Of a DNA stretch of 22,839 bases, positions 181-22,839 are shown piece after piece. The translations under genes were made by a program, and so were the position numbers. The notes beneath the pieces were generated by a model. That model was given only the letters and a program-made list of their open reading frames with translations, was not told where the DNA came from and ran no database searches. The stretch's first letter is position 1, and every line of letters starts with the position of its first letter. Source of the stretch: a virus; IMG/VR virus record IMGVR_UViG_3300047546_001801, positions 1 through 22,839 of that record, one strand, 5' to 3'.

Positions 181-187
181 AATATTT

Positions 188-1807: not shown

Positions 1808-1808
1808 A

Positions 1809-3641: not shown

Positions 3642-3643
3642 AG

Positions 3644-4273: not shown

Positions 4274-4277
4274 ATTT

Positions 4278-4505: not shown

Positions 4506-4506
4506 A

Positions 4507-5493: not shown

Positions 5494-5535
5494 AGTTATT
5501 TTGGGAAAAGAGGCCAGATCTAGACGGCCTACGAG

Positions 5536-5775: not shown

Positions 5776-5786
5776 AGCGACTGAAG
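5761..5786 (-). promoter_or_regulatory. Perfect hairpin around a start codon
   Basis: Two 10-base arms (5761-5770 and 5777-5786) are exact reverse complements around a 6-base loop. On the transcript strand the loop is TATGAG and so holds the ATG at 5775. The 3' arm ends just ahead of the GGAGG that serves the alternative start at 5751. No T-run follows, so it is not an intrinsic terminator. It could control which start is used. Confidence 0.65.
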
Positions 5787-5799
5787 CAGCCTCACGAAG

Positions 5800-6099: not shown

Positions 6100-6132
6100 A
6101 TACTTTTTGTATTCGCCTATTTTGCGGCGCAG

Positions 6133-6783: not shown

Positions 6784-6785
6784 AA

Positions 6786-7235
6786 CTAAACAATTTCACC
6801 CACAGATTCTGAGATGCCTTCACCACCCGTATCGACAACCGGCTCGACAACAATACTCTCTTTGGCCTGCACCAAATCCCCGTCCTGCTGGCGTTTCTCG
6901 GCCAAAACGAGCGTATCGCCGCCGACCAGGGCCAAGGCGTCCATGTGGGCGCTGATTTCATCTAGCGTCACCTCACGCACCTCATCATCTTTGATAATCA
7001 TTTTTGACGCCTCCACTTTGGAGGCCGTATCTGCAAAAACTTTCGGGTGGAGGAGTCTAGGCGTCCGCTCGTCAAGAACGCGAGCCATCATGGTCTTAGC
7101 CACTGAGTCGATAAGCTCAGGAGACACGTTTTTCCCCTCAATAAAACCGTTGTTCGCCTTGTCAGGGAAGCTGCCATCGTCATTGTAGATCTGAACCATC
7201 ACACCTGCCTGAAGATACATCGCTTTGTAAAGCAT
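6786..7235 (-). CDS. Hypothetical acidic structural-region protein
   Basis: A 149-residue protein with a short hydrophobic beta-type N-terminus (MLYKAMYLQAGVMVQIYN), a Lys/Glu-rich middle with helices and an acidic C-terminus. No family recognised. The frame extends upstream to ATG 7250, overlapping the previous gene by 11 bases, but ATG 7235 gives the junction TAAATATATG with the T-ATG rule of this window, while ATG 7250 has GATG. I prefer the shorter form. It may be a tail-fibre assembly or accessory protein because it sits between two fibre-like genes. Confidence 0.6.
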   Translation of the reverse strand: MLYKAMYLQAGVMVQIYNDDGSFPDKANNGFIEGKNVSPELIDSVAKTMMARVLDERTPRLLHPKVFADTASKVEASKMIIKDDEVREVTLDEISAHMDALALVGGDTLVLAEKRQQDGDLVQAKESIVVEPVVDTGGEGISESVGEIV

Positions 7236-7239
7236 ATAT

Positions 7240-8511
7240 TTACCGAACATCGCTTAGACTTTTGACGCCAAAATTCACATACACAGCCGAAAGGCCTGCC
7301 CATGCAGTCTGGGTATCTGCCGATGCCGCCCCATCACGAGAAACTTCTATATACGCAACACGACCGCCAAAAGTGGAACCGCCGAGAGCGACAGTCGTAC
7401 CTGATGTGTACGTCATGGTGAGCGACGTGCCATTTGGCGGCGTTGTGACAGTCGAAGTCGTGCCCCATGTGCCATCTATCGCCCCACCAGATGCCACAAC
7501 AAAGCCGCGAACACCCCAAGTTACACCTCCCGTATTCGTGGACGTTGTTGTGAACATTAGGGTCGCCGTGACCGTGCTGCCGTCCCAATTATTCGGTATC
7601 GCTACCTTCCAAGTCGCTTTGTTGAGCGAAGATGGGGAGAATTGAAGCACGCTCTCATTTTGGAAGTTGGTCGGCATTTCAAGCTGTGTCGGGCCTCCGG
7701 CACCGTTAGTCACGTTTGGCATGCCGCCGCCAGCGGATAATATGAGCGGTTTTTGTAGATTTATGCCGCCAGCCGTTATATTTGTACTCGACGATGTTAG
7801 ATTTATGCTGTCAAAATGCGATGTTGATGACGAATACACGCCACCAACGTACAAATATCGCCATCTATAGAATGGAGAAGTGGCGCTGCCAAGATCGTAG
7901 GTGAGATTTGCCGTCGGTATGACTGTCGCGTTGACCTGCGTCTGTGAGCCGAACATCCAGCTCCAAACACCATTCCGTATGATGCGTACAACGCCGTCTG
8001 ATGTCTGTGAAAAACCGGTATCTTCATCGCTAGAGAAGGAATACTGAACAGGCCAGTTACTCGCGCTTACGCCAGATTGAGCAACGAAACGAGTGGATGA
8101 AACGGTCGATGTGTTTGTGCCTAAGCTGCCCGCCACCTGTAGGGTGCGTGAGTTAGTGGAGGTCGAATAAGTGTAATTCGCGTCACCTCCAAGGTTTGAC
8201 GTCCCAGCCCAAAATGTTGCCTGATTAGCTACGCCTGTGCCAGTGATAGTCCCGCCTCCGCCTATCGTCGAAGATGCCGAAAGAATGAGCCGCCCGAACC
8301 TATCGACCGCTAAAGCCGAACCATACCCGTCTTGCAGCACCAGGTCCGTACCCGTGGCGTTATAGATGCCAGGCAGGTTGCCGTTTGAGGGGACTGCGGC
8401 CCCAAGTGCCGTCTCTTGTTTGAGGTACGCGACCCCGATGAGCACCGAGAGAGTGACGAAGGCGCACCCGGTCAGCGCACCTAGGGCAGCAAAGATCTTG
8501 TTTTTGTCCAT
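7240..8511 (-). CDS. Membrane-anchored fibre-like surface protein
   Basis: A 423-residue protein. Residues 6-30 form a signal anchor (MDKNKIFAALGALTG start). Residues 35-80 carry a module with NGNLPGIYNAT, DGYGSAL and DRFGRLILSASST that is shared with the small protein encoded just upstream. The rest is Ser/Thr/Gly-rich with repeated strand-turn pieces (TGTGVANQATFWAGTS), like the repetitive surface proteins of Patescibacteria. The C-terminal part from about residue 290 is a beta-sandwich-like region. The open frame extends to 8760, but ATG 8511 starts the anchor and follows the previous stop (TAATAACTATG). Role inferred as an exposed adhesin or fibre; no enzymatic motif seen. Confidence 0.75.
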   Translation of the reverse strand: MDKNKIFAALGALTGCAFVTLSVLIGVAYLKQETALGAAVPSNGNLPGIYNATGTDLVLQDGYGSALAVDRFGRLILSASSTIGGGGTITGTGVANQATFWAGTSNLGGDANYTYSTSTNSRTLQVAGSLGTNTSTVSSTRFVAQSGVSASNWPVQYSFSSDEDTGFSQTSDGVVRIIRNGVWSWMFGSQTQVNATVIPTANLTYDLGSATSPFYRWRYLYVGGVYSSSTSHFDSINLTSSSTNITAGGINLQKPLILSAGGGMPNVTNGAGGPTQLEMPTNFQNESVLQFSPSSLNKATWKVAIPNNWDGSTVTATLMFTTTSTNTGGVTWGVRGFVVASGGAIDGTWGTTSTVTTPPNGTSLTMTYTSGTTVALGGSTFGGRVAYIEVSRDGAASADTQTAWAGLSAVYVNFGVKSLSDVR

Positions 8512-8516
8512 AGTTA

Positions 8517-8735
8517 TTATTGGCTCGTTGAGCTGGCGATGACACGACCGTATCGATCCGTCAGAATGGCGGCCCCGTACCCGTCGCCAAGGGCAGTCGG
8601 CGTGGCGTTGTAGATGCCTGGGAAGCTCCCATTTGAGGCTGGCGTCGCTCCAAGTCTCGTGGCTGGCGAGGTCTGGGCGATTGCGGCGGTCATGAGGAGG
8701 ATGCCCACGATTGCGCCTGCGAAGAACTTGGTCAT
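8517..8735 (-). CDS. Short secreted paralogue of the downstream surface protein's N-terminus
   Basis: A 72-residue protein with a signal peptide (about residues 1-20, MTKFFAGAIVGILLMTAAIA) followed by NGSFPGIYNATPTALGDGYG and a DRYGRVIASSTS ending. The mature part aligns along its whole length with residues 35-80 of the protein encoded next (7240-8511): PGIYNAT, DGYG and DR-GR match. It therefore looks like a freestanding copy of that module, ending about where the larger protein goes into its fibre. It is separated from the next gene by five bases and preceded by a strong hairpin. Confidence 0.75.
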   Translation of the reverse strand: MTKFFAGAIVGILLMTAAIAQTSPATRLGATPASNGSFPGIYNATPTALGDGYGAAILTDRYGRVIASSTSQ

Positions 8736-8757
8736 AGGGTGGTCGATGTAGTCGGCC

Positions 8758-8780
8758 CATCCCCGGACGAGCCGGGGATG
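8758..8780 (-). promoter_or_regulatory. Strong intergenic hairpin
   Basis: Nine-base arms (8758-8766 and 8772-8780, CATCCCCGG and its exact complement) close a 5-base loop in the 58-base gap between the 8794-9477 and 8517-8735 genes. No T-run follows on either strand, so it is not a classic terminator. It may protect or process mRNA or limit translation of the downstream gene. Confidence 0.6.
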
Positions 8781-8793
8781 AAGGACGACACCG

Positions 8794-9477
8794 TTAGAGG
8801 TACGTCAAGCTGCAAGCTCCTGCGTTCGTGGTCGTGGCAGAGACGAAGTTGAAGTATTCGCCACTAGCCCATTCCGTGTACGCTGTAAGCTGCGGGGTCG
8901 AGGTGGTCGTGATGCGGTCCACACCAGACAGCCGGACGACTGCCGTATTGAGCGCCTTTCCAGTCGCCACAGTAGCGACGCCCGGATAGGTGCTCGTACC
9001 AGCCAACCAGATCACGGAGCCAAGGGACGAGGCCGTGCCACGGTCGCGCACCCCAGCGGAGGTCACGGTGCGAACCACGCCAGACCCGTTATAGAAGGAG
9101 CAGGCCGTGGTCGTGGCCGAACTGGACATCGTGGAGGTCAGCTTGGCGGCGACGTTGCCGGTGGCTACGCCCGTAACGTACAGGTTCGTGCTCGATACAG
9201 AGCGGTCAGAGCCGACGACGGCAACGCCTTTGACGGCGATGCCTGCGTCAAACGTCTCCTGGGTGTTGTGGACAAGCCCGCCTAGCTTCTCCTCCGGCTC
9301 AGGAGCCGGGAGAGAGGCGACGTTTGCGCCCGAGGGCAGCACCACTACCGGGGCAGGCGCAGGGGCCGGGGCCACGGTCGGGCGTGCGAGAAAGAGCGCG
9401 GACAACGCGAGGCCTACAGCCGCGACCCCGAGGGCCACGGCTGCGAGCATTCCGTTGTGTTTACATTGTTCGTTCAT
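8794..9477 (-). CDS. Membrane-anchored Ala/Thr/Ser-rich surface protein
   Basis: A 227-residue protein. Residues 11-31 are a strongly hydrophobic anchor, followed by an Ala-Pro linker (PTVAPAPAPAPVVVLP). The remainder is beta-type and Thr/Ser/Val-rich, with Cys residues near 126 and at the C-terminus (ACSLTYL) that could form a disulphide outside the cell. There is no enzymatic motif. It lies immediately downstream of the capsid gene, first of three exported proteins in a row. The composition resembles repetitive secreted proteins of Patescibacteria. A fibre, decoration or host-surface role is possible. The start ATG 9477 has CTCTATG and no Shine-Dalgarno site. Confidence 0.7.
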   Translation of the reverse strand: MNEQCKHNGMLAAVALGVAAVGLALSALFLARPTVAPAPAPAPVVVLPSGANVASLPAPEPEEKLGGLVHNTQETFDAGIAVKGVAVVGSDRSVSSTNLYVTGVATGNVAAKLTSTMSSSATTTACSFYNGSGVVRTVTSAGVRDRGTASSLGSVIWLAGTSTYPGVATVATGKALNTAVVRLSGVDRITTTSTPQLTAYTEWASGEYFNFVSATTTNAGACSLTYL

Positions 9478-9509
9478 AGAGTTTGAAAGCCTGTTAGCTT
9501 CGTTTGCTC

Positions 9510-10671
9510 TTAGGCGAACAAGGTCGTGTCGGAGGTGTCGATCTTGACGTTGACGATTTCGTTCTTGCCCTGGTTGAAGGTCTTGCAGCCGAACACGTCG
9601 AGCGAGCCGACATTCACACCGAACTTGCCGTTAGACAGCATTTCGTCCATCTGCACGGTCGGCTCCTTCTGGATGACCATGTCGATAGCATTCTTCATGC
9701 CCGCGAGGACATGCTGGGTCGGTTTGGTCCAGGTGTCAGTCGCATCAGAGCCGGAAACCGTCATAAAGGACACGCCCTTCTGGTAGACGGTCACATAGGT
9801 CGTGCCATCGACAGCGACCATGTTCTGCACGATGCGCTGGTTGGCGACGGACAGGTCATAGCCCTGCGACGCCACGCCAGCACCGCCCGCGTTGATGAAC
9901 GCCACGAGGTTGTCGAGGGTCACAGCGGTCGAGGTTTCAGACTTGACCTTGCCGGCCGCATCGAGCGTTCCCGTCTCGAAGGTGAAGGTCACGCCACCGA
10001 TAGTGATGGTGTCACCGTCCGAAGGCTGGTTGGCAGGCGTCCAGACAGCCGAAGCGGTCAGGTTGTTGGTCAGGTACAGGTCGAGGCCAGCGTACTTGCC
10101 GACATGCCCATACTCGCCGCTCTTATCGCCAAGCAAGCTCTCCTTGCCCGAGATGTAATTCCACAAGATCTCGTGGAACTGCGGGGAAATAGCCGCGAAG
10201 CGGCCCTCCACCGGGCAATTCTGCGAGTTGAGCTTGCGGTTGATTTTGGCCGGACGAACCGCCGAAGTCGGCAGCGTCGATGGTGTTGTTGGCATTGATG
10301 ACCTCATACAAGAACTCGGCATCCATGGCCTCGCCCTGACGCTTGCCCATTTCCTCGGCATTGACCTGCATCAAGTCGTACTTGTTCTGCAGCTTATCCA
10401 CCGTGTCGATGTATATAAGGATGGTCTTTTGCTTGTTGATCTCCAGCTTGTCCGAGGTAGCGGAGATGTCCTGCACGTTGGCGGCAGTACCCTTCGTGTA
10501 GTTTTCAACGACCAGGTTCGAGCGGTACGGGCGGTCAACGCTCAACCCGAAGGTCAAGGAAGGCTGCTCGGCGAACGAAGCCAAGGCGCGGAACACGTTG
10601 GTCTTGAACCGCTTGCGGCCCATGATTTTGCTCCACAAGAGGGGAGAGGCCGCTGAAAGTGAATTTGCCAT
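9510..10671 (-). CDS. Major capsid protein, reading frame broken
   Basis: The gene starts at ATG 10671 (MANSLSAASPLLWSKIMGRK). The first frame reads to about 10,250 and would stop at 10,123 after 182 residues. A second frame then continues to the stop at 9510. The switch is near 10,245-10,260, where DAADFGGS of frame one meets KINRKLNSQNCPVEGRFAA of frame two; a shift of +1 joins them into about 386 residues. The second half carries ISPQFHEILW and an inserted beta domain (about 10,050-9,850) with DGDTITIGGVTFTF, a piece often seen inserted in phage virion proteins. Position after the scaffold confirms the capsid call (HK97-type fold). The first-frame product alone would lack most of the fold. 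Mutation, small deletion or assembly error is more likely than programmed shifting. Confidence 0.8.
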
Positions 10672-10703
10672 AATTGGTTTTTGTTTTGAGCCTCACCAAG
10701 TCG

Positions 10704-11573
10704 CTATCCTTTCGGATTTTTTCGCAGCCACTCGGCGTACTTGTCGATTTCCTCCCCGGAGAGGGATGCAAGCTGGTCCTCGGTCATTTCCTTGTAGTCG
10801 ATGACGCGAGTGCCGTTCCTGCTACCTCCCGGCGTCTCCATGGTCTTGCGACCCGGAGCCTCGGGGTTATCGTGCTTGTACGCGATGGCGAGCGTGCGGA
10901 GCTTGGTGTTGATGTTCTCCTCGGAAAAGGCCAGCTCTTTTAGAGCCTCTTTCCGTGAAGCCAGCTCGGGGAACTCTTTGACGATGCTGTCGAACTCGCT
11001 GTCGAAGTGCTTATCCTCGGCAGCTTGACGTTGCTGGGCTTCGGCTTCGGCGCGAGCCGCCTTGATTGCTTCTAGGTCTGCTTTCAGCTCCGGCGGCAGG
11101 TCTTTTTGCTGCCTTGACGTGAGCTTGGATACACCTTCGAGCAAGTCATTGACGAAACCGGGGTCTAAGTCGTGCTTTTCAGCGAGGGACTTGCCTAGGT
11201 TCGCCAGATCATCGTTCGCTTCCCCTGCGGGCTTGTTAGAAGCGGCATCGAGTTTGGCACGCAGCTCGGCGGCTTCGCGCTCGGCCTTTTCGGCGCGAGT
11301 TTCGGCTTCCTGACGCTTGTGCCGCTCCTCGACATGCTTGCTAACGGGAACGTATTTTGAGGTGCGTTCTACTTTGTTTTTGTTTTCGTCCGGCTCCGGC
11401 TTGTCCTGGGCTTCGGCCTTCTCCTCCGGCTTAGCCTCGGGTTTGACCTCCTCCTTGGTTTCCACCGTCTCCGTCTTAGCCTCCGGCGCGGGTGCGCTTT
11501 CGGCCTCCATCTCTTTGATAATCTCCCGAACTTCGGGCGAAGCGTTATCAAGCGCTTGATTGTCTTGTGACAT
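10704..11573 (-). CDS. Capsid scaffolding protein
   Basis: A 289-residue, highly charged, mostly helical protein. Residues about 20-70 are Glu/Lys/Pro-rich, residues 75-110 form a coiled coil (ETRAEKAEREAAELRAKLD), and another helical stretch runs through 135-205. It lacks signal or membrane segments. Low complexity, coiled coil, length and position right before the major capsid gene are classic for a scaffolding protein, which shapes the procapsid and then leaves. ATG 11573 has ACTTATG; the preceding 209-base leader is strongly structured and carries an intrinsic terminator. Confidence 0.8.
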   Translation of the reverse strand: MSQDNQALDNASPEVREIIKEMEAESAPAPEAKTETVETKEEVKPEAKPEEKAEAQDKPEPDENKNKVERTSKYVPVSKHVEERHKRQEAETRAEKAEREAAELRAKLDAASNKPAGEANDDLANLGKSLAEKHDLDPGFVNDLLEGVSKLTSRQQKDLPPELKADLEAIKAARAEAEAQQRQAAEDKHFDSEFDSIVKEFPELASRKEALKELAFSEENINTKLRTLAIAYKHDNPEAPGRKTMETPGGSRNGTRVIDYKEMTEDQLASLSGEEIDKYAEWLRKNPKG

Positions 11574-11656
11574 AAGTGTTTTTTGTCCCGGCGCTTAGCC
11601 GGTGGTCCTGTCGAAGTCGGACCAGGCTTAGAAAGGCTAAAAAGCCTTGATTTACG

Positions 11657-11679
11657 AAAAAACCCCCGCGATGCGGAGG
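11657..11679 (-). terminator. Intrinsic terminator before scaffold gene
   Basis: On the minus strand, CCTCCGC and GCGGGGG (one G-U pair) enclose loop ATC, followed by six T residues (11,662-11,657). It would end transcripts from the upstream packaging genes or act as an attenuator. A CGGAGG at 11,748-11,743 upstream could pair with the CCTCCG in its 5' arm and open it. Confidence 0.7.
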
Positions 11680-11697
11680 CTCTTTCAGGCGACGAAA

Positions 11698-11762
11698 CGA
11701 TAGAGACTTGCGAGTAACTATCGCTCCGAGGCCTATATAGAACCTCCGAACGTCGCAAGTCT
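11698..11762 (-). promoter_or_regulatory. Overlapping alternative stems upstream of the terminator
   Basis: Stem A is a 10-bp exact pair (11,762-11,753 with 11,713-11,704; AGACTTGCGA and complement). Stem B is a 6-bp exact pair (11,723-11,718 CGATAG with 11,703-11,698). Their arms interleave in the order A-B-A'-B', so they form either alternative structures or a pseudoknot. With no bases between A' and B', mutual exclusion is more plausible than a pseudoknot. Confidence 0.5.
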
Positions 11763-11782
11763 TTTATTGTTTGTCTAAGTGA

Positions 11783-12037
11783 CTAGGCTCGATTCCAACC
11801 CGTCAGGAGCGCGCGGCCCTCGGCCTCTGTCTTTGGCCGGCCAACCGCCTGCTTATTGTCGTTGAACACCACGAACTCGTCGCCAGCCTTGAAAAGCGAG
11901 AACTTCCCGCGTTTCTCCACCAGCTCGGCCTCGGGAACCTTCTTAGCCTCAACCGGGGCGACTTCCACCTCGGTATCCACCTCTTTGACTTCCGTCTGAT
12001 CCGCTTGGACCTCGGCGTTCTTCTTCGGTCTACCCAT
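11783..12037 (-). CDS. Small hypothetical protein with basic N-terminus
   Basis: An 84-residue protein beginning MGRPKKNAEV, with a Val/Glu-rich middle and a C-terminal portion (KFSLFKAGDEFVVFNDN) that looks like a small beta domain. The N-terminal GRPKK resembles an AT-hook core, and GRP recurs near the C-terminus (VGRPKTEAEGRAL), but this is weak. The open frame extends upstream to 12,076; ATG 12037 (ATTTATGGG) is favoured and overlaps the upstream stop by eight bases. It is the last packaging-side gene before the terminator. Function unknown. Confidence 0.6.
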   Translation of the reverse strand: MGRPKKNAEVQADQTEVKEVDTEVEVAPVEAKKVPEAELVEKRGKFSLFKAGDEFVVFNDNKQAVGRPKTEAEGRALLTGWNRA

Positions 12038-12416
12038 AAATGCGTTTGATTGCTTTATTGATGTTAAAAAGCGCACCGTCTACCCATTGAAAGAAGTTGT
12101 TGACGTGCGGGTTGGTGAGCGGTGTCTGCATGTGGAACATGATAGCGGCGATGAACTTGTCGATGGCCCCGTTCTTGTCGAACTTGGACACTTTCAGCAC
12201 CTCGCGGACCACGTTGCAGTCCTTCCCATCCTCGGATTTTATGATACCACCCGTTTGTTGACCCCTATGGGCCATGAACAGGGTATTATCCCTCGGGTCA
12301 GCGACGATTATGAGCAGTCGCTTGTTGGCGTTGGCGAACGCGGCGATGTTCGTCATGGAGCGCCTGATGCGCCAGTCCGTGTACTTTTTGACGATATTTT
12401 CTATGTATTCTTGCAT
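12030..12416 (-). CDS. Hypothetical helical protein of the head region
   Basis: A 128-residue protein with a helical, positively charged N-terminus (MQEYIENIVKKYTDWRIRRS), a central strand-rich part (LLIIVADPRDNTLFMAHRG) and a C-terminal helical part. No recognised family. It begins two bases after the previous stop (TAAATATG), and its stop overlaps the next gene by eight bases, so it belongs to the same transcription unit as portal and scaffold. It may be a head-morphogenesis accessory protein by position only. Confidence 0.6.
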   Translation of the reverse strand: MQEYIENIVKKYTDWRIRRSMTNIAAFANANKRLLIIVADPRDNTLFMAHRGQQTGGIIKSEDGKDCNVVREVLKVSKFDKNGAIDKFIAAIMFHMQTPLTNPHVNNFFQWVDGALFNINKAIKRIYG

Positions 12417-12418
12417 AT

Positions 12419-12763
12419 TTACTCAATCAGGCTGTCGATGGCACGGTCTATCTCCTCGCACCGTTTGCCGGGGTCGAAGGTGGACATGAAATCGCGGTAC
12501 AGCTCCTTCCTGTCCAGCAGGTTTTCACGGTCCAGGTCGGACAGCTTTCGCTCGGTCAGTAGGCGGGTGTCCATTTCCTTGACGCGACTCTCGCACTTCC
12601 CGACGAATTTCTTGATGATGTCGCTCTCGGCAATAGCCTCGACCGCCTGGACCTCGCGCACGGCCTCTAGGAAGCCGTCGAGCATAGCGTTCACGCGGCT
12701 GTCATACTCGGACCGATTGAACGAATTAATCTTGGCGATGAGGGTGGATGCCGTGATCTGCAT
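12419..12763 (-). CDS. Hypothetical all-helical protein
   Basis: A 114-residue protein made almost entirely of charged amphipathic helix with a probable coiled coil in the middle (CESRVKEMDTRLLTERKLSD). No known motif. It follows the 12765-12995 gene by one base (TAGTATG). It lies between portal and scaffold, a place often holding head-accessory genes. Function unknown. Confidence 0.6.
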   Translation of the reverse strand: MQITASTLIAKINSFNRSEYDSRVNAMLDGFLEAVREVQAVEAIAESDIIKKFVGKCESRVKEMDTRLLTERKLSDLDRENLLDRKELYRDFMSTFDPGKRCEEIDRAIDSLIE

Positions 12764-12764
12764 A

Positions 12765-12995
12765 CTAGACCAGGATGCGGCCAGCCTGCATTAGCTCCGT
12801 GATTTTATCGTCGAAACGCGCATGGACCGACGTTTTCCGGCGCTCGTCCCGCATGATGTCGCGGTACATGCGCGGCCTAGGGCCGGGCGCGATGGGCAAG
12901 TCGTCCTCGTCTACCACGGGAGCGCGGCGGCGACGCATCCACTCCCTTGCATACTCCCGGCGCTTGATACGTTGGGCTTCGTTCAGTATTCGCAT
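12765..12995 (-). CDS. Small Arg-rich hypothetical protein
   Basis: A 76-residue protein with a very basic N-terminal helix (RIKRREYAREWMRRRR) followed by an acidic, Pro-rich linker and another basic stretch. The basic helix could bind nucleic acid, but no family is recognised. It starts three bases after the portal stop (TAGACTATG), directly downstream of portal in the operon. Confidence 0.6.
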   Translation of the reverse strand: MRILNEAQRIKRREYAREWMRRRRAPVVDEDDLPIAPGPRPRMYRDIMRDERRKTSVHARFDDKITELMQAGRILV

Positions 12996-12998
12996 AGT

Positions 12999-14921
12999 CT
13001 AGGCAAGGGCCATGGCCGGATTGAGCGGTGGCTTGGGGGCAGGGGAGACGGGCATCGGCACGGCCTCCTCCGGGGGTAGACCGGTCTGGGAGCGGCGGCG
13101 CATAGCCTCGCGCACCATGTTCTCCTCCACGATGGCGTCATGGGCTTCGGAATAGGTCATGAGCGCCATGTACAGGTCGAGGTTATCGTCGGTATTGTCC
13201 AAGGCGAAGTCCACAATCTTTTGCTGGAAGGCCGTATTCGCCCCTCTAAAGAGCTTCGGCGTCTTTCCGGCCACAATGTCGTTGATGGCCTCGGACGCGC
13301 GCGCCATGACGGTTTTATTACCAGTCGTCTCGGTGTCCATGGCCACCCGCACCTCCTCATCGGTGAAGTCCCCGGCGAGCAAGGTCTGTTCAGCGCGCCA
13401 CTTGGGGTTGACCACGGCGAGAAGCGCCGGGTCGGCGTTGAGAGCCGCGAGCGCGTTCGAGCGCGACTGCTTCTTGACGAGGGCGACTTCCAGCTCTGCC
13501 GAGCCGCTTTCCACGAGGATATCGACGTTCGGGTCGATGTCCCGGCCTCGCAGGTAGTCCCATTCGACTCCATTCTCCCCGATGAGACGGACGGCCATTT
13601 GCTCGTTCAGATGTTCCTTGCAGGCCCACACAAAGGCACGAGCGATGGCGCGCCAGCATTTCGTATAGCTCTTGTTGACCAGGCCAAGGCGGTCAGCGAT
13701 TTGCTGCAAGTTGCCTTGGTAGATGCCGACCTTCTGCTCCTCTGCTGCCCCTTGGGAGCCAGCCGTGATGCCCGACTTCGTGCCGAGCATGTTATCCATG
13801 TACTCGACGAGGTTGATGGTCCCTTGCAGCTCCGGCGTCTCGAACTGGTAGATGCCGCTAGCGATCTGGCGCGTCTTGGTCGCCCCGGCGGCCGTAGGCA
13901 CGAGCCCATCAGGCCGGAACTCGAGAAGTGCCGCGTTCGGGAACATCTCGGGGTCATAGGCACGCTGCCCCATGTTCCGGCGATTGCGGTTGGTCAGCTC
14001 CTGATTGAACAGGACGGCGATGCTCTCCGCGACCGGGAGGATGTCGTCGCACGGCCCCTTGGACCAGAAGTTGAACTCGTCCTCGTGGGTTGCCCAAGAC
14101 TTCCAGGCCCACATGCCGCTCTCGAAAACCTTGTCCCACTCCTCCAAGCGGATGATGAGCTTGGTTTCGTAATTCCATAGGGCATACATGCGCTTGCCCT
14201 TATAGGTCGTGCCGCTCTCGATAAACTGCGTCATGCCTTCCCCTTGGAAGTTGAACATCGTGCCGGTCAGGCCCAGGGCATTGAGGCGGTTGGCCTTGTT
14301 GCGGTACTTGTCGTCGTTGTCCTTGATGGTGTCCTCCGACTGGCCGTTGATGAGGGTATCGACCGCTTTCGCGTCATACATCCCGTCATTCGCCCCGTCG
14401 ATGAGCTGTTGGCGTGAGAGCCAAATGCCAGCCTCGCCAAGATAACGGGCGTTCTCGACGCCCCCGCGCGTCATCGGGTCGATGTAGAAATCGTAGTGGT
14501 CAACCGGGCGCAGGTTGAACTTGAACTTTGGCTTGCTTTCGCCAAAAACCCGCCAGATGCCACGCCCGGACATGATGGCGAGCTTCTTGACGTTCAGATC
14601 CTTAGACGCGAAGTCGTTGTCGTCCTTGTTGCTCTCCGCATCCCAGAAGGCTTGGGTCTTTTTCGTGTTGCGGTACAGGCTCTCGTGGGCCTCCTTGAAC
14701 CGCACGATGGTCTTTTCGTCCACCTTAGAGTGCATCGTGTCCACGAACCCGGACATGATGGGGAGCGGGACGTTGAACTGGCCTTTTACCGTCTTTTTGA
14801 CCCTGCCGAAGTACAGGTCTTCGATGCGCTGCCAGTTGGCAACGCGGCCCTGCTTATATTCGAGGCCGTTTTCGTATTCTTGTGATAGCTGTAGAGCTAT
14901 CTTTTCTCTGTCGTTGGGCAT
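12999..14921 (-). CDS. Portal protein
   Basis: A 640-residue protein without signal peptide. The start resembles phage portals: a helical N-terminus, the RIEDLYFGRVKKTVKGQFNV segment, and a beta-rich middle with RPVDHYDFYIDPMTRGG. A long region (about residues 330-440) containing GTKSGITAGSQGAAEEQKVG matches the crown/stem part of P22-type or related portals, and the C-terminus is Pro-rich. The portal forms the dodecameric vertex for DNA packaging and is coded after terminase, as here. It lies 25 bases inside the end of the preceding small gene. A large antisense open frame across it is a shadow. Confidence 0.8.
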   Translation of the reverse strand: MPNDREKIALQLSQEYENGLEYKQGRVANWQRIEDLYFGRVKKTVKGQFNVPLPIMSGFVDTMHSKVDEKTIVRFKEAHESLYRNTKKTQAFWDAESNKDDNDFASKDLNVKKLAIMSGRGIWRVFGESKPKFKFNLRPVDHYDFYIDPMTRGGVENARYLGEAGIWLSRQQLIDGANDGMYDAKAVDTLINGQSEDTIKDNDDKYRNKANRLNALGLTGTMFNFQGEGMTQFIESGTTYKGKRMYALWNYETKLIIRLEEWDKVFESGMWAWKSWATHEDEFNFWSKGPCDDILPVAESIAVLFNQELTNRNRRNMGQRAYDPEMFPNAALLEFRPDGLVPTAAGATKTRQIASGIYQFETPELQGTINLVEYMDNMLGTKSGITAGSQGAAEEQKVGIYQGNLQQIADRLGLVNKSYTKCWRAIARAFVWACKEHLNEQMAVRLIGENGVEWDYLRGRDIDPNVDILVESGSAELEVALVKKQSRSNALAALNADPALLAVVNPKWRAEQTLLAGDFTDEEVRVAMDTETTGNKTVMARASEAINDIVAGKTPKLFRGANTAFQQKIVDFALDNTDDNLDLYMALMTYSEAHDAIVEENMVREAMRRRSQTGLPPEEAVPMPVSPAPKPPLNPAMALA

Positions 14922-15184
14922 AGCCCTTTTTGTTTTAGGTATTCGTCGAGGTCGAAGTTACGCGCGATGACCAGGACCTTGCCGCCCGTTGACCGCACCA
15001 GAGTCAATTTCGTCGGGTCACCGTCCATGAGGGTAATGCTGTAGTCGAAGTATCTGCGCCAGAAGGGTGACCACTCCATGAGGAAGCGCTGCCACCTTGG
15101 TACATGCTCTAGTATAAGCCTGTACTGTTGAACATATAAGGTATTCATCTGTTCGGCCGCAGCTTTTTCAAGGGATTTGTTCAT
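14897..15184 (-). CDS. Small hypothetical protein between terminase and portal
   Basis: A 95-residue protein with a helical N-terminal half, an aromatic patch (WQRFLMEWSPFWRRYFDYS) and a C-terminal strand-helix (GGKVLVIARNFDLDEYLKQ). No recognised family. Start ATG 15184 follows the terminase TGA by three bases (TGAAATATG). The stop lies 25 bases inside the portal gene, suggesting translational coupling. It may be a head-tail joining or packaging accessory protein by position only. Confidence 0.6.
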   Translation of the reverse strand: MNKSLEKAAAEQMNTLYVQQYRLILEHVPRWQRFLMEWSPFWRRYFDYSITLMDGDPTKLTLVRSTGGKVLVIARNFDLDEYLKQKGLCPTTEKR

Positions 15185-15187
15185 ATT

Positions 15188-16756
15188 TCAGTATGTTTCG
15201 TAGCTGCTCGTCGGGATATACGGCTCTTGGACGTACTGCTGTATGGCCACGTCCGGGCGGTAGAACGTCAAAGCCAAGGCGTCAGCCTTGTTAGGGGAGC
15301 GGCCATGGTTGAGGCCCAGCTTTCGCATGATAGGCTTGGGCATGATCTGTATGCGGTCCTTGGCCCCCGGCGTGCGGCGATAGCGGATGCTCAACAGCTC
15401 CTCGCGCCACTTGTCCAGGTCGCAGAACTCCCCACCGGCCTTGACCCACTCGCGCAGCCTCCAAAACAGCTCGGCACGGCGGTTGTAGAAACGCTCCGGG
15501 TCATCCGGCCCCTCGCCCACGTTGACGCCGTTGATGCGAAGGTTCGGGAGAGCCTTGCCGTCCGGCCCGGTCCCAACGCTTGAAAGCGCCACCTCTTGCG
15601 CCACGTTCGCGCCCTCCCCGAAGTTGTCGCAGGCCACATCGTCCGGGTCTATGCCAAAGGTCTTTATATGCCCCACAGCGCGATGGGCGATGCTTTTGGG
15701 CGTGTTGACCTTCTCAAGCTCCAAAATCTTCGCCTTGAGGCTATCCCTGGCCGCCTGGCACATATCGTCGCCACCATCCTTGGCCGGGTCTATGCCCAAG
15801 CGGATGCGCCCGCGTAGCGCCGTGTCCTTCGCGGCACGCAGGTCGGCCTCGACCAAGAGGGGAACATAGCCCTGGTCGTCCACCCCTTCCTCGGCAGCAA
15901 ATTCGCCAGCGACGCGGATGCGGAACTCGTCGCTATCCCGCCCATGCTTGGCGATGATGCCCGTCACGAAATCCTGGTCCACGATAGGGCTATCCTCGCC
16001 GTTGAAATGCAGGGTTTGCCAACGGGCGCTATCGCTATTGTGCGTGTCGTAGAAATAGCCCACCAAGCGCGTGCCGTTGGAAATGAGGATGACCAAGACG
16101 TTTTCGCCCGTCATGGCTCCTTCGGCGGTGTTGTAAATCTCCTCGTAGACGCCGGAGGCCTCATCAACCGCCATGAGGACGAAAGGACCGTGGACGCCGG
16201 CCAGGGCCTCGCTGTTCTCCTTCGAGGCCGTGCGAGCACGGGCAAACCACGTCTCGGGGCTTTCCCTCATGCGTATATACTCGCTCGACCAGTCGTAGAG
16301 CGAGGCGATCTGCGCAGGCATCTTGCGGAGCCAGGACGCTAGCTCCTTCCAAAGCACGTCATGCATCTGGCTCGACGTGGGAGCCGTGCAAGGCACTTGG
16401 GCGTCCTTGTGGCAGAACAAGGCCCATAGGATTATCCAGGACATCGTACAGCTCTTGCCAACCCCATGGCCGCTCCTGACGCTGATGCGCCTTTTACCCT
16501 TGCCGCGGATGGCCAGCTCGACGGCCACCAGCAAGAGCCATTGTTGCCAAGTGATGTGCTTGCCCTTCTCAAAAGGGGAGAAGTGGGACTTTTTGATGCC
16601 TTTGAGGTTGCCTGATGCAACCAAGGCCTTCACCTCGTCAAAGCACTCGGGTTTGACTGGCTGCGGGACGAGGCCCCACATGCGACGCACGAAATAGGTC
16701 GGGCTTTTCTGAAACCGACGCATCAGCTCCTTATCCTTGGCCAGCGTCTCATCCAT
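15188..16756 (-). CDS. terL: Terminase large subunit
   Basis: A 522-residue packaging motor. Walker A is SGHGVGKS (residues 95-102) and Walker B is VLMAVDEASG with Asp198/Glu199. ISNGTR near 226 is the coupling motif. The C-terminal nuclease half has GIDPAKDGGDD (Asp323) and, near the end, SPNKADALALTF, the classic RNase H-like final acidic motif. The enzyme cuts concatemeric DNA and pumps it into the prohead through portal, with ATP hydrolysis. A TTG at 16,765 gives three more residues, but ATG 16756, which overlaps the small-subunit stop by eight bases, is preferred. This is the one minus-strand start with GATG rather than TATG. Confidence 0.92.
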   Translation of the reverse strand: MDETLAKDKELMRRFQKSPTYFVRRMWGLVPQPVKPECFDEVKALVASGNLKGIKKSHFSPFEKGKHITWQQWLLLVAVELAIRGKGKRRISVRSGHGVGKSCTMSWIILWALFCHKDAQVPCTAPTSSQMHDVLWKELASWLRKMPAQIASLYDWSSEYIRMRESPETWFARARTASKENSEALAGVHGPFVLMAVDEASGVYEEIYNTAEGAMTGENVLVILISNGTRLVGYFYDTHNSDSARWQTLHFNGEDSPIVDQDFVTGIIAKHGRDSDEFRIRVAGEFAAEEGVDDQGYVPLLVEADLRAAKDTALRGRIRLGIDPAKDGGDDMCQAARDSLKAKILELEKVNTPKSIAHRAVGHIKTFGIDPDDVACDNFGEGANVAQEVALSSVGTGPDGKALPNLRINGVNVGEGPDDPERFYNRRAELFWRLREWVKAGGEFCDLDKWREELLSIRYRRTPGAKDRIQIMPKPIMRKLGLNHGRSPNKADALALTFYRPDVAIQQYVQEPYIPTSSYETY

Positions 16757-17144
16757 CGTCGGCAATCAAACCCTCGTTATCGTCCTCTACCTCATCGACC
16801 AAGAGCGCGGTCAGGCTCATGGAGCCGGATATGTGCTTCTTCTCGGGAGCGTATGATCCGTGAACCTTGAACACTTGCTCGGATGCCTTGAGCTTCACTT
16901 CGTCCCGTGTTTTCTCGCCGTGCAGAATCTTCGCCACGACCTTCATGGCGCTCTCAGGGTCAAAGCCAAGAACCTTTAGCTCTTCTTGCACCCCCTCTTG
17001 GGCAATAATGTCCCCTGGACGACCCCTAGAAGTCGCCTTGCTATAACCCACCTTTTCCAAAATAGCCCCAGCAGAGGTCTTTTTACCGCTTTTTGCGGCA
17101 GCGACTATCTCTTTGGCGAGGTTCTTTTGTCGAAGGGTGGCCAT
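16749..17144 (-). CDS. terS: Terminase small subunit
   Basis: A 131-residue protein with a Lys-rich helical N-terminus (TLRQKNLAKEIVAAAKSG), then a helix-turn-helix-like segment (AGAILEKVGYSKATSRGRPGDI) and a helical, acidic C-terminus. This matches small terminase subunits (DNA recognition), which bind the packaging site and stimulate the large subunit. It is directly upstream of terL, overlapping it by eight bases. Start ATG 17144 has TAGCTATG and follows the previous stop by two bases. Confidence 0.8.
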   Translation of the reverse strand: MATLRQKNLAKEIVAAAKSGKKTSAGAILEKVGYSKATSRGRPGDIIAQEGVQEELKVLGFDPESAMKVVAKILHGEKTRDEVKLKASEQVFKVHGSYAPEKKHISGSMSLTALLVDEVEDDNEGLIADDG

Positions 17145-17146
17145 AG

Positions 17147-17419
17147 CTATTTCTTCTTTCGCTCGGCGTTCGGCTTGACCTCTCCCTCGTTTGCTAGCAT
17201 CACGTCTTGCATGAGCTTGGCGAAGAACTGGCCTAGATGGTCGGGCCTGCAGAAGTGCAAAAACTTCCCATTGAGGCTAGCGAACACGCCCCAATACGGA
17301 GTGCCGTATATGAACGGCGGGAGGGCGATGCCGGAGAACTGGCCGAAGCTCAAACTGATGTGCGGCTTCTCACCGATAGCTCGCTTACAATGGTCGCATT
17401 TGTAGACGGTGGTTCGCAT
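17147..17419 (-). CDS. Small Cys/His-rich putative zinc-binding protein
   Basis: A 90-residue protein. N-terminal TVYKCDHCKRAIGEKPH and later FLHFCRPDHLGQF give two Cys-x2-Cys and Cys-x3-His type ligand sets, consistent with one zinc site in a treble-clef or similar fold. The C-terminus is basic (KPNAERKKK). It is the first gene of the minus-strand operon, so it might regulate late transcription, but there is no direct evidence. The frame also opens at ATG 17437, which overlaps the likely -10 box, so ATG 17419 (GCATATG) is preferred. The implied transcript start lies only a few bases ahead, so the leader would be very short. Confidence 0.6.
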   Translation of the reverse strand: MRTTVYKCDHCKRAIGEKPHISLSFGQFSGIALPPFIYGTPYWGVFASLNGKFLHFCRPDHLGQFFAKLMQDVMLANEGEVKPNAERKKK

Positions 17420-17427
17420 ATGCACAA

Positions 17428-17454
17428 AGTATACCATATGTGTTCATGGCTCAA
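17428..17454 (-). promoter_or_regulatory. Candidate late-operon promoter
   Basis: On the minus strand, TATACT (17,433-17,428) is a good -10 box and TTGAGC (17,454-17,449) a partial -35 with only 15 bases between. The start site would be within a few bases of ATG 17419. The short spacer makes the -35 weak. Confidence 0.4.
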
Positions 17455-17488
17455 CTAACGCTCGCCGGTTTCGGTAGGGCTTATCTTC

Positions 17489-17516
17489 TTGCAGCCCCTC
17501 ATGTATGAGGCACAAT
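17489..17516 (+). promoter_or_regulatory. Candidate early promoter with palindrome in spacer
   Basis: TTGCAG (17,489-17,494) and CACAAT (17,511-17,516) are 16 bases apart. The spacer contains the perfect palindrome CCTCATGTATGAGG (17,497-17,510), ideally placed as a repressor operator. A 5-bp hairpin (17,536-17,548) lies downstream. The divergent gap 17,420-17,557 holds no gene on either strand. Confidence 0.4.
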
Positions 17517-17557
17517 ACTAAGGCTCATTCTTAACGCGGCCAAGCCGCAATAATCGT

Positions 17558-17887
17558 GTGCAGAAGCACTTTGAAGACGAGTTGGAGATACTCATGCTGA
17601 CCAACCCAAGGGGAGGGAAGCCGCAGCAAATGGGGAGGACGTACTGGATAGGGATGCAGACAGGATGCCAGTCGCCGGAGGACGTGGTGGAGATAAGCGC
17701 GATCCGCGAGGACTCGTCAAAACGCTTTCACCTTGGCTATTGCAAGTGCGGGATGAAGATATCGGCAGGGGAGAAGCGCGCCCTGGTCCTCATCAAGACC
17801 ATGCAAAAGATACTTGGAATCGCAACCGAGGAGCAGTTAGACGCGAAGATACTGTCGGGCATGATGCAGAACGCCGGGAGAGGGTAG
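17558..17887 (+). CDS. Hypothetical early protein
   Basis: A 109-residue reading with GTG start, or 97 residues from ATG 17594 (GGAG six bases upstream, a fair Shine-Dalgarno site). Neither start has the T-ATG context; the ATG form (MLTNPRGGKPQQ) is plausible. The middle has GCQSPEDVVEISAI and YCKCGMKISAGEKRALV, where CKC and a preceding Cys near residue 37 might bind metal. The C-terminus is helical (KTMQKILGIATEEQL). No recognised family. It is the first gene rightward from the divergent control region. Confidence 0.5.
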   Translation: MQKHFEDELEILMLTNPRGGKPQQMGRTYWIGMQTGCQSPEDVVEISAIREDSSKRFHLGYCKCGMKISAGEKRALVLIKTMQKILGIATEEQLDAKILSGMMQNAGRG

Positions 17888-17892
17888 GGTAG

Positions 17893-17901
17893 TTATCCAC
17901 A
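17893..17901 (+). other. DnaA box (TTATCCACA)
   Basis: TTATCCACA fits the consensus TTATNCACA exactly, in the gap after the 17558-17887 gene. TTGACA follows at 17,903. The same 9-mer lies beside the iterons at 22,678. It may be a host DnaA site that regulates early genes, or chance. Confidence 0.5.
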
Positions 17902-17933
17902 GTTGACACATTAAATCGCTAAGCATAGCAGAC

Positions 17934-17963
17934 TTGACCGAACGCTCGGGCAGGCTGTATTAT
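17934..17963 (+). promoter_or_regulatory. Candidate sigma70-type promoter
   Basis: TTGACC (17,934-17,939) and TATTAT (17,958-17,963), 18 bases apart, lie just ahead of ATG 17979. The leader would be only about nine bases. Another TTGACA at 17,903 has a poor -10. Confidence 0.55.
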
Positions 17964-17978
17964 GGTCGTACACCGAAT

Positions 17979-18137
17979 ATGGAAGCCATCACAAAAGTCG
18001 CCTCACTCATGGGCAAGCGTAGCGCAGAGGTCCGCAAGAACCGCGCAGGCAACAGCCAAGCGTTCAACGACCAGATGCGTAAACTGTCCGAGAAGGCGCT
18101 AGAGAAGCGGAAGGCGAAAGTTGGGATGCCAAGGTAA
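17979..18137 (+). CDS. Small basic hypothetical protein
   Basis: A 52-residue Lys/Arg-rich protein beginning MEAITKVASLMGKRSAEV and ending with a helical KALEKRKAKVGMPR. The open frame extends upstream to a TTG at 17934, but that falls in the -35 box, so ATG 17979 (GAATATG) is preferred. It could bind nucleic acid because of its charge, but no family is recognised. It is followed by a structured non-coding stretch. Confidence 0.55.
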   Translation: MEAITKVASLMGKRSAEVRKNRAGNSQAFNDQMRKLSEKALEKRKAKVGMPR

Positions 18138-18138
18138 G

Positions 18139-18186
18139 CCTGACCGGGACATCGGCAGGAGCCTATCTACGCCGGAGGACGTAGAT
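18139..18186 (+). other. Two tandem hairpins downstream of a small gene
   Basis: Hairpin 1 (18,139-18,159) pairs CCTG and CCG with CGG and CAGG around a single bulged A. Hairpin 2 (18,165-18,171 with 18,180-18,186, ATCTACG and exact complement) shows CCGGAGGA in its loop. Neither has a T-run, so neither is a classic terminator. Confidence 0.55.
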
Positions 18187-18233
18187 CGCAAGTGGCATAG
18201 ACCCTTTGACAACAGAAGAAACTACTCATTAAG

Positions 18234-18380
18234 GGGTAGGCGGGGACACGAAGCGCGGCTTTTTTTCAAACGTAGTTGCGTCGTACAATATATCTGTTGA
18301 CACGCTGCCAGGTTTGAAGAAACGAGCCAAATACGGCCTCTGAAAAGGCAGAGCGTCGCATAACGTGTCCCCGCCTACCC
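18234..18380 (+). repeat. Perfect 17-bp inverted repeat enclosing a structured 113-nt stretch
   Basis: GGGTAGGCGGGGACACG (18,234-18,250) is exactly complementary to 18,364-18,380. Inside, TTCAAAC (18,265-18,271) pairs with GTTTGAA (18,312-18,318), extendable by four bases with a G-U pair. CTCTG (18,338-18,342) pairs with CAGAG (18,349-18,353). The fold is a multibranch structure closed by the long stem. No credible gene lies inside. It could be a non-coding RNA, a regulatory leader for the next genes, a DNA site or a MITE-like insertion; I see no flanking direct repeat. Confidence 0.6.
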
Positions 18381-18398
18381 GGAAAGACAAGAATGATT

Positions 18399-18536
18399 AT
18401 GAAAATCGAGCTGACCACGGTTGGCGAAGATTATGGGAGGGTGGAGGTGAACGGAAAGGAGTACGAAGTATCGCTCACGTCCTGGAAAGCGATAAAGCGT
18501 CTGTTCGATGCGGTCATTATCCTCATCGGGGCCTGA
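18399..18536 (+). CDS. Small hypothetical protein
   Basis: A 45-residue protein beginning MKIELTTVGEDYGRVEVNGK, with alternating strands, a helix (SWKAIKRLFDAV) and a hydrophobic C-terminus (IILIGA). ATG 18393 would add two residues; ATG 18399 (ATTATG) fits the start rule better. It ends in TGA, one base before the next ATG. Compact beta-alpha composition suggests a folded domain, but no family is recognised. First gene after the structured region, probably cotranscribed with the recombination genes. Confidence 0.6.
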   Translation: MKIELTTVGEDYGRVEVNGKEYEVSLTSWKAIKRLFDAVIILIGA

Positions 18537-18537
18537 T

Positions 18538-18615
18538 ATGGAACCGAACATAGACGAGCTGCTAGCCGAGTGGACCGCGCCCATCACGGGCATTAACGAA
18601 CCTATAGAAGATTGA
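18538..18615 (+). CDS. Microprotein between small gene and ERF gene
   Basis: A 25-residue acidic frame starting MEPNIDELLAEWTAPITG. It has TGATATG at the start and TGAAATATG at its end, leading straight into the ERF gene. This tight, tiled arrangement supports it as a real coding unit or a translational coupler. Function unknown. Confidence 0.5.
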   Translation: MEPNIDELLAEWTAPITGINEPIED

Positions 18616-18618
18616 AAT

Positions 18619-19380
18619 ATGCAAAACGAAGTCATCGTAGCCCCGCCGCAAGCGGTGGCTGTTTCGCCTACACCAACGGCAGAAACGCTTATCGCGCAGG
18701 CATTGGACAAGGGATTATCGGTCGATACCATCGAGAAACTTTTGGCCATGCGAAAAGAATTGAAAGCCGAAGCTGCAAAGGAGGCATATGATGCCGCCCT
18801 GGCCGCCTTCCAAGCGGACTGCCCGGTCATCAAGAAGGATAAAAAGGTAAAATTCGATACGAAGAACGGCGGGAAAGTGGATTACCACTATGCCCCGCTC
18901 GATAGCATCGTGAAGCAGGTAAAATCACTCATCGCAGAGCATGGTTTCAGCTACAGCTTCAAGATCGAGGAAACGCATGGAAGCGTAAAAGCGACGTGCA
19001 TCTTGAAACATAAGGCAGGACACTTCGACACGAGCGACTTTACAGCCGAAGGCATGGGGACTGGCCTGATGTCAGGAGCGCAAATAGCATCGGGCAAGGC
19101 GACCTTCGCCAAGCGCCAAGCGTTCTGCAACGTCCTGGGCATCACGACCGGCGACGAGGATACGGACGCGCCGCTTGGGAAGGACGAGGCCAAGAACAAA
19201 GGGGCCGCGACCCAGGAGCAAAAGGACGAGATTGACGCGCTGGCGCAGCAGGCCGGTTTGACCAAGGCTGAGGTGGCCAAGAAGTGCCGGGAAAACTACG
19301 GCGTGTCCATCACGGACATCACGAGCGTGCAGGCCCAAGGAATCATCGGCGGATTAAAAACGCGAATAGCCAAAGCCTAA
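18619..19380 (+). CDS. erf: ERF-family single-strand annealing recombinase
   Basis: A 253-residue protein. Residues about 40-190 are the ERF domain: KAEAAKEAYDAALAAFQADC, the VDYHYAPLDSIVKQVKSLIAEHGFS block and the MGTGLMSGAQIASGKATFAKRQAF block with NVLGITTGDED. The last 60 residues are helical. ERF proteins anneal complementary single strands and pair with a 5'-3' exonuclease for recombination-dependent replication or circularisation of phage DNA. The next gene encodes that exonuclease, one base away (TAATATG). The start, ATG 18619, is set by TGAAATATG. Confidence 0.9.
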   Translation: MQNEVIVAPPQAVAVSPTPTAETLIAQALDKGLSVDTIEKLLAMRKELKAEAAKEAYDAALAAFQADCPVIKKDKKVKFDTKNGGKVDYHYAPLDSIVKQVKSLIAEHGFSYSFKIEETHGSVKATCILKHKAGHFDTSDFTAEGMGTGLMSGAQIASGKATFAKRQAFCNVLGITTGDEDTDAPLGKDEAKNKGAATQEQKDEIDALAQQAGLTKAEVAKKCRENYGVSITDITSVQAQGIIGGLKTRIAKA

Positions 19381-19381
19381 T

Positions 19382-20005
19382 ATGAACATCATACGTTATG
19401 AGGACCGCGACCAATGGCTTGCGGGGCGGCTTTGCCGTATCACGGGGTCGCGCCTAAAGGACATCGTGGTCAAGCGCGGCACGGGCAAGAAAATAGGCTT
19501 TTACGAATTAATCGCTGAACGCATCGGCATCCCGGCTGACAATGAGAACGCCATGGACCGGGGCCAGCGCTTAGAGCCGGAGGCCATCGAGCGCTTCGAG
19601 GCCGCGACGGGCAAGAAGGTGGATACATCCCTCTGTATGTGGACCAGGGAGGACGGCGAACACATCGCCGTTTCCCCGGACGGCTTTATCGCCCCCAAGA
19701 AGGGCGGGAAGGTCAAAGAGGCTGTCGAGGTCAAATGCCTTGGTTCGGCGCGCCACATCGAGGCCGTGCTGACCAACGAAGTGCCGGACGAGTACCACTA
19801 CCAGGTAGTGCAATACTTCGCCGTGAACGACGACCTCGAAAAGCTGTACTTCGTCCTGTACGACCCGCGCTTGAAGGTCAAAGACTTCCACACTATCGAA
19901 GTCACGCGGGAGCAGGTGCAAGAGGAGGTCACGATGATGCTCATGTATCAACGCGACACCTTGCAGGAGGTCGAACGGATCGCGGCAGAGTTGATGGCGT
20001 TCTAA
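19382..20005 (+). CDS. YqaJ/lambda-exonuclease-like nuclease
   Basis: A 207-residue protein with the YqaJ-type fold: ITGSR (residues 20-24), a GQRLEPEA helix (61-68), Asp100 in SPDGF, Glu116-x-Lys118 in EVKC, and Gln141 in YHYQVVQYF. These form the PD-(D/E)xK catalytic set of alkaline exonucleases. It should resect double-stranded ends 5'-3' to give substrate for the ERF annealing protein encoded upstream. The start is one base after the ERF stop. All catalytic residues are present, so it is probably active. Confidence 0.9.
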   Translation: MNIIRYEDRDQWLAGRLCRITGSRLKDIVVKRGTGKKIGFYELIAERIGIPADNENAMDRGQRLEPEAIERFEAATGKKVDTSLCMWTREDGEHIAVSPDGFIAPKKGGKVKEAVEVKCLGSARHIEAVLTNEVPDEYHYQVVQYFAVNDDLEKLYFVLYDPRLKVKDFHTIEVTREQVQEEVTMMLMYQRDTLQEVERIAAELMAF

Positions 20006-22383: not shown

Positions 22384-22839
22384 ATGGCCAGTCCGCAGAC
22401 ACAAAACGGCTATCTACGAATTGCCAATGAGCTATGGGATGCGCTGCTGTCGCGCCGCATCCCGGCGCAATCCAGGAGCGTGTTCGACGCCATCATACGT
22501 CTGACGTGGGGGTTCAATAAAAAGTCCGAGCACATACCCCTCCTAAAGCTGATGGAAATGACGGACATGCCGGAGCGTCAGGTCTGCAAGGCAATCGCAT
22601 GGCTGAAAAAGGCAAACATGATAGCCCGAGAGAGGAGCGGAGAGACGAAAATCAACAAGGATTTTGAGACGTGGGAATTATCCACACCTGCCAAAAACGG
22701 CATCTGCCAAAAACGGCAGGAAAAACCTGCCAAAAACGGCAGGTCTACATCTGCCAAAAACGGCAGGTCCTTTACCTATATAGAAAGACAGACGGAAAAG
22801 ACAATTAAAGACATCACGGACGATAGAAAAACTGGGGAT
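22384..22839 (+). CDS. Lambda O-like replication initiator, C-terminus cut by window edge
   Basis: An open frame starts at ATG 22384 (TGATATG) and runs 152 codons to the edge without stop. Residues about 8-95 match the phage replication protein O domain: NGYLRIANELWDALLSRRI, IIRLTWGFNKKSEHIPLLKL, MTDMPERQVCKAIAWLKKAN, a winged-helix fold. From residue about 98 on, the coding sequence contains a DnaA box and four iterons (PAKNG motifs), so the protein carries its own origin, as lambda O does. It should bind the iterons and recruit the helicase loader. C-terminal function is not visible. Confidence 0.85.
   Translation, partial: MASPQTQNGYLRIANELWDALLSRRIPAQSRSVFDAIIRLTWGFNKKSEHIPLLKLMEMTDMPERQVCKAIAWLKKANMIARERSGETKINKDFETWELSTPAKNGICQKRQEKPAKNGRSTSAKNGRSFTYIERQTEKTIKDITDDRKTGD
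22678..22686 (+). other. DnaA box next to iterons
   Basis: TTATCCACA fits the consensus TTATNCACA exactly and ends one base ahead of iteron 1. The same 9-mer lies at 17,893. Host DnaA may assist origin opening. Confidence 0.6.
22688..22767 (+). repeat. Four origin iterons inside the O-like gene
   Basis: Copies start at 22,688, 22,704, 22,727 and 22,751. The core is CTGCCAAAAACGGCA; copies 2-4 have CTGCCAAAAACGGCAGG. Each is a palindrome (CTGCC and GGCAG around AAAAAC). Lambda iterons are likewise near-palindromes around CAAAACG, also in gene O. Spacings of 16, 23 and 24 bases are not all multiples of three, so the repeat reads in more than one frame. An A/T-richer stretch follows at about 22,771-22,800. 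Confidence 0.85.

Follow-up and report, generated by a model that had tools for sequence, protein, structure and literature searches.

The hallmark of RNase III processing in the messages of T7 and lambda is a long double-stranded stem between early genes. In lambda, nutR lies after cro, and the origin is laid out as iterons inside the O gene. RNase III sites in the messages of lambda, T7 and T3 are established (reviewed in PMC5371410), and putR, which comprises two stem-loops, lies about 270 nt downstream of the promoter start (PMC9378689). Recombination genes of the Erf/YqaJ type occur commonly in phages, and neither Rfam nor a literature search for structured RNA linked to Erf yielded a described RNA element tied to them.

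The locus considered here lies in a virus record of 22,839 bases, the whole of which we call the window. It contains an element at 18139-18380, with ORF52 on its left and ORF47 on its right, that we tentatively read as a structured RNA acting in cis between two cistrons of a lambda-like phage's early rightward transcript, most likely as an RNase III-type processing or insulation stem and possibly on the elongation of the transcript.

The element and its place in the early region

The late genes of this phage run leftward from 17437 and the early genes rightward, in the order ORF109 (17558), ORF52, ORF47, ORF25, erf, exo, a lysozyme-like ORF, genes for HNH and NinB-like proteins and, last, the beginning of a lambda-type O gene (PF04492). 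On the plus strand, erf (18619-19380) encodes a single-strand annealing protein (PF04404, E 7.7e-18; phrog_155, E 4.6e-34) and exo (19382-20005) a YqaJ-type exonuclease (PF09588, E 3.2e-18). Three smaller plus-strand frames flank the element, all with gene-like codon usage: ORF52 (17979-18137; frame +3 of 17980-18134), which encodes a small basic protein and had no relative in Pfam, PHROG or phage searches; ORF47 (18393-18536), the first frame 3' of the element, for which Pfam, PHROG and a further sequence search likewise gave no relative; and ORF25 (18538-18615; frame +3 of 18539-18613), a tiny frame between ORF47 and erf. The sequence-only reading had seen no credible gene in the region itself, and codon usage agrees: no frame of 18139-18392 carries a coding signal, and no ORF crossing the region matches Pfam. 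A second record, G001, comes from the same phage, with about 99.9% identity to window positions 1-9287 and 99.5% to 9235-17713, the latter match including an extra 44-nt insertion in G001 (the near-identical record there is L074/L012). It reaches 8.8 kb further left than the window and ends at window position 17713, and therefore supplies no second copy of the element. Elsewhere in the window, the minus strand at 11560-11790 is strongly structured (z -9.4 on that strand), with terminator-like hairpins; the leftward gene 10704-11573 begins just downstream of it.

The sole promoter-like site of the region is a plus-strand, sigma-70-like TTGACC-18-TATTAT at 17934-17963 (10/12 matches), which predicts a transcript start at about 17970; as about as many such sites are expected by chance (0.8), the promoter is inferred. 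Because this promoter is predicted and no intrinsic terminator was found on the plus strand from 17400 to 18700, the element probably lies inside one transcript, and a single predicted rightward message appears to run from the promoter through ORF52, the element, ORF47, ORF25, erf and exo. The element had been placed between the early genes and the recombination operon; its position holds, but the implied separation does not, as both sides appear to belong to the same transcript. A perfect DnaA-box-like sequence, TTATCCACA, at 17893-17901 on the plus strand (two exact matches in the window, 0.1 expected) abuts a TTGACA hexamer. Several related loci, L110, L128, L123, L127, L086 and L078, likewise have a DnaA box next to or near the early promoter, about 1240-1600 nt upstream of exo and so at a distance similar to that in the window, and perhaps DnaA controls this promoter.

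The plus-strand element begins with two tandem hairpins, as first noted from the sequence, at 18139-18159 and 18165-18186. The second has a 7-bp perfect stem and the loop CCGGAGGA, which does include the GGAGGA that had been pointed out, although we gained no independent support from that loop. Individually both hairpins are modest (z -2.9 each), and both are mostly formed in longer contexts, with pair probabilities of 0.84-0.99 and 0.65-0.95, respectively. A closing stem, P1, then joins 18234-18250 to 18364-18380, a perfect 17-bp inverted repeat with 113 nt between its arms (5'-arm pair probability 0.98-0.997 in all contexts); its 3' arm stops 12 nt short of the ORF47 start codon. P1 encloses a long internal hairpin, P2 (18257-18328; z -4.8 on the plus strand, -3.0 on the minus), whose base is a 15-bp helix, 18257-18271/18312-18328, followed by an irregular extension, and a short one, P3 (18334-18358; z -2.2, pair probability 0.99). 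The complementary arms proposed earlier inside the repeat, TTCAAAC/GTTTGAA at 18265-18271/18312-18318 and CTCTG/CAGAG at 18338-18342/18349-18353, are both present, the first within the P2 base. P1, P2 and P3 together form a three-way junction on the plus strand with five G-U pairs, four of them in P2, and all three have pair probabilities >0.9 both in isolation and within transcripts of up to 17970-18700.

This fold exceeds shuffled controls in two separate respects. First, the closing repeat, which had been singled out from the sequence, is 17 bp long, as against 14 bp for the longest perfect inverted repeat (spacing up to 250) that arose when the whole window was dinucleotide-shuffled 200 times. 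Related phage contigs have a perfect repeat of at least 16 bp roughly every 100 kb, which makes the element unusual, not unique. Second, the 147-nt element (18234-18380) folds with z -9.2 as plus-strand RNA, -6.9 as minus-strand RNA and -7.3 as single-stranded DNA. As the repeat alone would score well on both strands, its 113-nt interior was tested separately, giving z -3.6 on the plus strand (0/200 shuffles) and -1.6 on the minus (12/200). We take the element to be real, very stable, meaningfully placed and probably RNA-level.

Immediately 3' of P1 lies GGAAAG (18381-18386, plus strand), a weak Shine-Dalgarno-like sequence for ORF47 that is predicted to be unpaired, with a probability of 0.91 when P1 is formed and 0.83-0.96 when either P1 arm is blocked. 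As the site is open with or without P1, simple masking is unlikely, and processing or insulation is favoured; masking of the ORF47 ribosome site by P1 was rejected on the same ground, the site being open in all folds.

Long stems before erf in related loci

By sequence, the element stands alone in all the collections searched. It had no match by blastn among 50,697 phage records, no relative in a plasmid search, none when viral contigs and 84,980 genomes were scanned for exact patterns and none in a DNA comparison of 37 related records; a single-sequence covariance model found only itself, both in 56 whole records and in 83 sources made up of the window and 82 loci. Searched up to E 3, Rfam had nothing that matched the region, and a whole-window search was blank over it, in line with the initial impression that no known family has this layout. 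A structured non-coding RNA or control element, as originally suggested, is still the best reading, given a strand-asymmetric fold that exceeds shuffles on the plus strand, a region that does not look coding and similarly placed stems in relatives, but no homologue of the element itself turned up in the collections. The nearest relative by terminase, L073 (terminase 62%, exo 57%, erf 42%), has no such structure before erf and appears to have its own strong promoter directly before that gene.

We compared loci with erf and/or exo genes, among them ten erf-exo loci. A stem scoring at least 45 lies within 420 nt upstream of erf in four of these ten (the window, L079, L110 and L128); several other erf phages have no such stem upstream. 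Four stems compare with 0.12 expected from all other sequence, and three with 0.28 expected from non-coding sequence defined with a 120-aa ORF threshold (P 0.003), an enrichment that is suggestive only, because the score threshold and the region were picked after the data had been seen.

L079 (z -6.6) has tandem hairpins and then a long stem enclosing two small hairpins, which is the window's layout in different letters. L110 (z -7.8) has a 20-bp stem and a second hairpin, and the leader of L128 taken in full has no more than modest structure (z -2.5). The L110 and L128 sequences align well over the DnaA box, the promoter and the 3' flank (AGGATTAYSAA) but not in the stem arms, which suggests that pairing was kept while sequence changed. 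Like the window, all three leaders have a long and nearly perfect stem on the erf strand, upstream of that gene, but their sequences are unrelated, their loops are 28-57 nt as against 113 in the window and their distances to the next start codon are different.

Other loci carry a different fold at a comparable place. In L123 (3113-3177) and L129 (3235-3291), an H-type pseudoknot with stems of 16-18 bp that include G-U wobbles (S1 p 0.000 and 0.029, respectively) lies a short way before a start codon in the recombination operon; L122 (3148-3231) has a similar one that is weaker and not significant, and Rfam matched none of the three. The pseudoknots of L123 and L129 resemble the element in having a long stem that ends just before such a start codon. 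They differ from it in being H-type, whereas the window has no significant pseudoknot partner: a pseudoknot there was considered and rejected, as the two candidate pairings, 18207-18216/18293-18302 and 18173-18183/18332-18342, gave shuffle p values of 0.19 and 0.05 and neither outscored the other. As the structures of L122, L123 and L129 look like pseudoknots and not like the window layout, that they are of the same kind is unproven.

A possibility to which L079, L110 and L128 point, if a doubtful one, is that the window's three-way junction is one member of a class of cis-acting RNAs that immediately precede annealing-protein and exonuclease genes in a group of environmental phages. Such a class would conserve its layout, a long closing stem and sometimes a pseudoknot, with a sequence that changes too fast for family searches.

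Three further features of the compared loci are recorded here in their own right. L127 has a very structured leader (2700-3150; z -7.3) between a DnaA-box promoter and its operon, in which a different small protein with no family assigned replaces erf upstream of exo. L094 has two promoters (2768-2800 and 3716-3750) with an embedded near-palindrome, TGACACGTTA-N4-TAACATGTCA, that looks like a repressor operator. The 64-bp perfect inverted repeat at the start of contig L028 (1-163) is probably an assembly artefact.

Other readings of the element

The main rival, which we consider unlikely, is a nascent-RNA element of the HK022 put or nut kind, which would act on RNA polymerase, through antitermination or by preventing pauses, and so allow read-through of a long early operon. 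The early region is lambda-like, with erf, exo and the genes for the NinB-like and O proteins all in one direction, and its first ORF is small and basic. The element resembles put (PMC9378689) in lying in such an operon and in having tandem stem-loops at a similar distance from the predicted promoter: the two stem-loops at 18139-18186 begin about 170 nt, and P1 about 264 nt, into the predicted transcript. However, put is about 70 nt long with conserved sequence and has no 147-nt closed junction, and the blastn search, which found no similarity in the phage records, thereby found none to put-bearing phages at that sensitivity. A nut site would share the position after the first small gene of the early operon, but no boxA- or boxB-like motif occurs from 17961 to 18620. 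Nor were nearby terminators found that such an element would have to overcome.

Two further readings we regard as distinctly improbable, to the same degree. One is that the element was inserted, as a MITE-like or other mobile element without coding capacity whose ends are the 17-bp inverted repeats. Perfect terminal repeats do flank a non-coding 113-nt core, and the element is missing from L073, the nearest relative. Against it, there is no target-site duplication beyond a trivial TA and no second copy in the window, and paired 11-nt inner repeats at the element's spacing occur in none of 2.9 million viral contigs or 84,980 genomes (ten single-arm matches in viral contigs include no paired copy). 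No Y1 transposase turned up in the phage contigs, the core folds better on one strand only, and an insertion would leave the similarly placed stems in relatives unexplained.

The other is a DNA-level signal, such as a replication origin, a recombination site or a paired operator, in double-stranded or extruded DNA. Many protein-binding sites are perfect repeats like this one, there is a DnaA box 330 bp upstream and the single-stranded DNA fold is also strong, with the z of -7.3 given above. Against this, the interior fold is strand-specific and uses G-U pairs, no single arm recurs at any promoter and the element has no iterons. A much better candidate origin lies inside the O gene (22384-22839), where four iterons CTGCCAAAAACGGCA (also given as TGCCAAAAACGGCA) at 22688-22765 follow a perfect DnaA box TTATCCACA at 22678-22686. 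The stretch 22678-22765 is a likely replication origin, which further weakens the origin reading of the element at 18.2 kb.

That the element is a separate, trans-acting small RNA with its own promoter is very unlikely: it is compact, very stable and free of ORFs, but on neither strand does a promoter-like site immediately precede it or a terminator follow it. We give slightly less credence still to a chance or relic structure with no present function, to which a single sequence without demonstrated conservation and the background of such-size repeats in related contigs (about one per 100 kb) would lend themselves, since the stem and, independently, the interior exceed shuffles and such stems are enriched at this place. 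Two further candidates were rejected: a retron non-coding RNA, because the record, which may be incomplete, has no match to a reverse transcriptase (PF00078), and an intrinsic terminator, because no G+C-rich hairpin followed by a U run lies on the plus strand between 17400 and 18700, the right P1 arm being followed by GGAAAGACAAG. MITE, retron, terminator, nut site and replication origin all fit worse than a cis-acting intercistronic RNA.

A possible processing or insulation stem

Computation shows the fold and its bias towards the plus strand, the lack of coding character, the place within the operon and an open ORF47 ribosome site; we infer that the element is transcribed and processed and that it affects expression. 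In the processing or insulation reading, a message beginning at about 17970 would bear ORF52 and the two small hairpins and would then fold, from 18234 to 18380, into a three-way junction closed by the 17-bp stem, with the ORF47 ribosome site left open immediately 3' of it. The long double-stranded stems would form an RNase III-type processing and insulation point that parts the first small gene from the ORF47-ORF25-erf-exo section of the message, and they may determine how stable the message of the recombination genes is and how much product it yields.

If the stems are functional, these recombination genes would be controlled after transcription start by an RNA that is free in sequence and fixed in pairing. 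Such drift in sequence, if it is real, would explain why family searches overlook such RNAs, and would suggest a simple search rule: look for long stems just before the gene for an annealing protein.

Among the closest described counterparts are the RNase III stems of T7 and lambda, from which the window element differs in being larger, in forming a closed three-way junction and in having no sequence or Rfam relation to them; cleavage here is only predicted. The predicted fold does offer one feature of an RNase III site, extended double-stranded RNA within untranslated sequence of a polycistronic message: the 17-bp P1 and the 15-bp P2, with pair probabilities >0.9, lie between coding-like ORFs. 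What the element shares with the T7 early RNAs, the lambda N leader and cIII is a long RNA stem that lies, untranslated, within an early phage operon, a short way 5' of the start of a gene.
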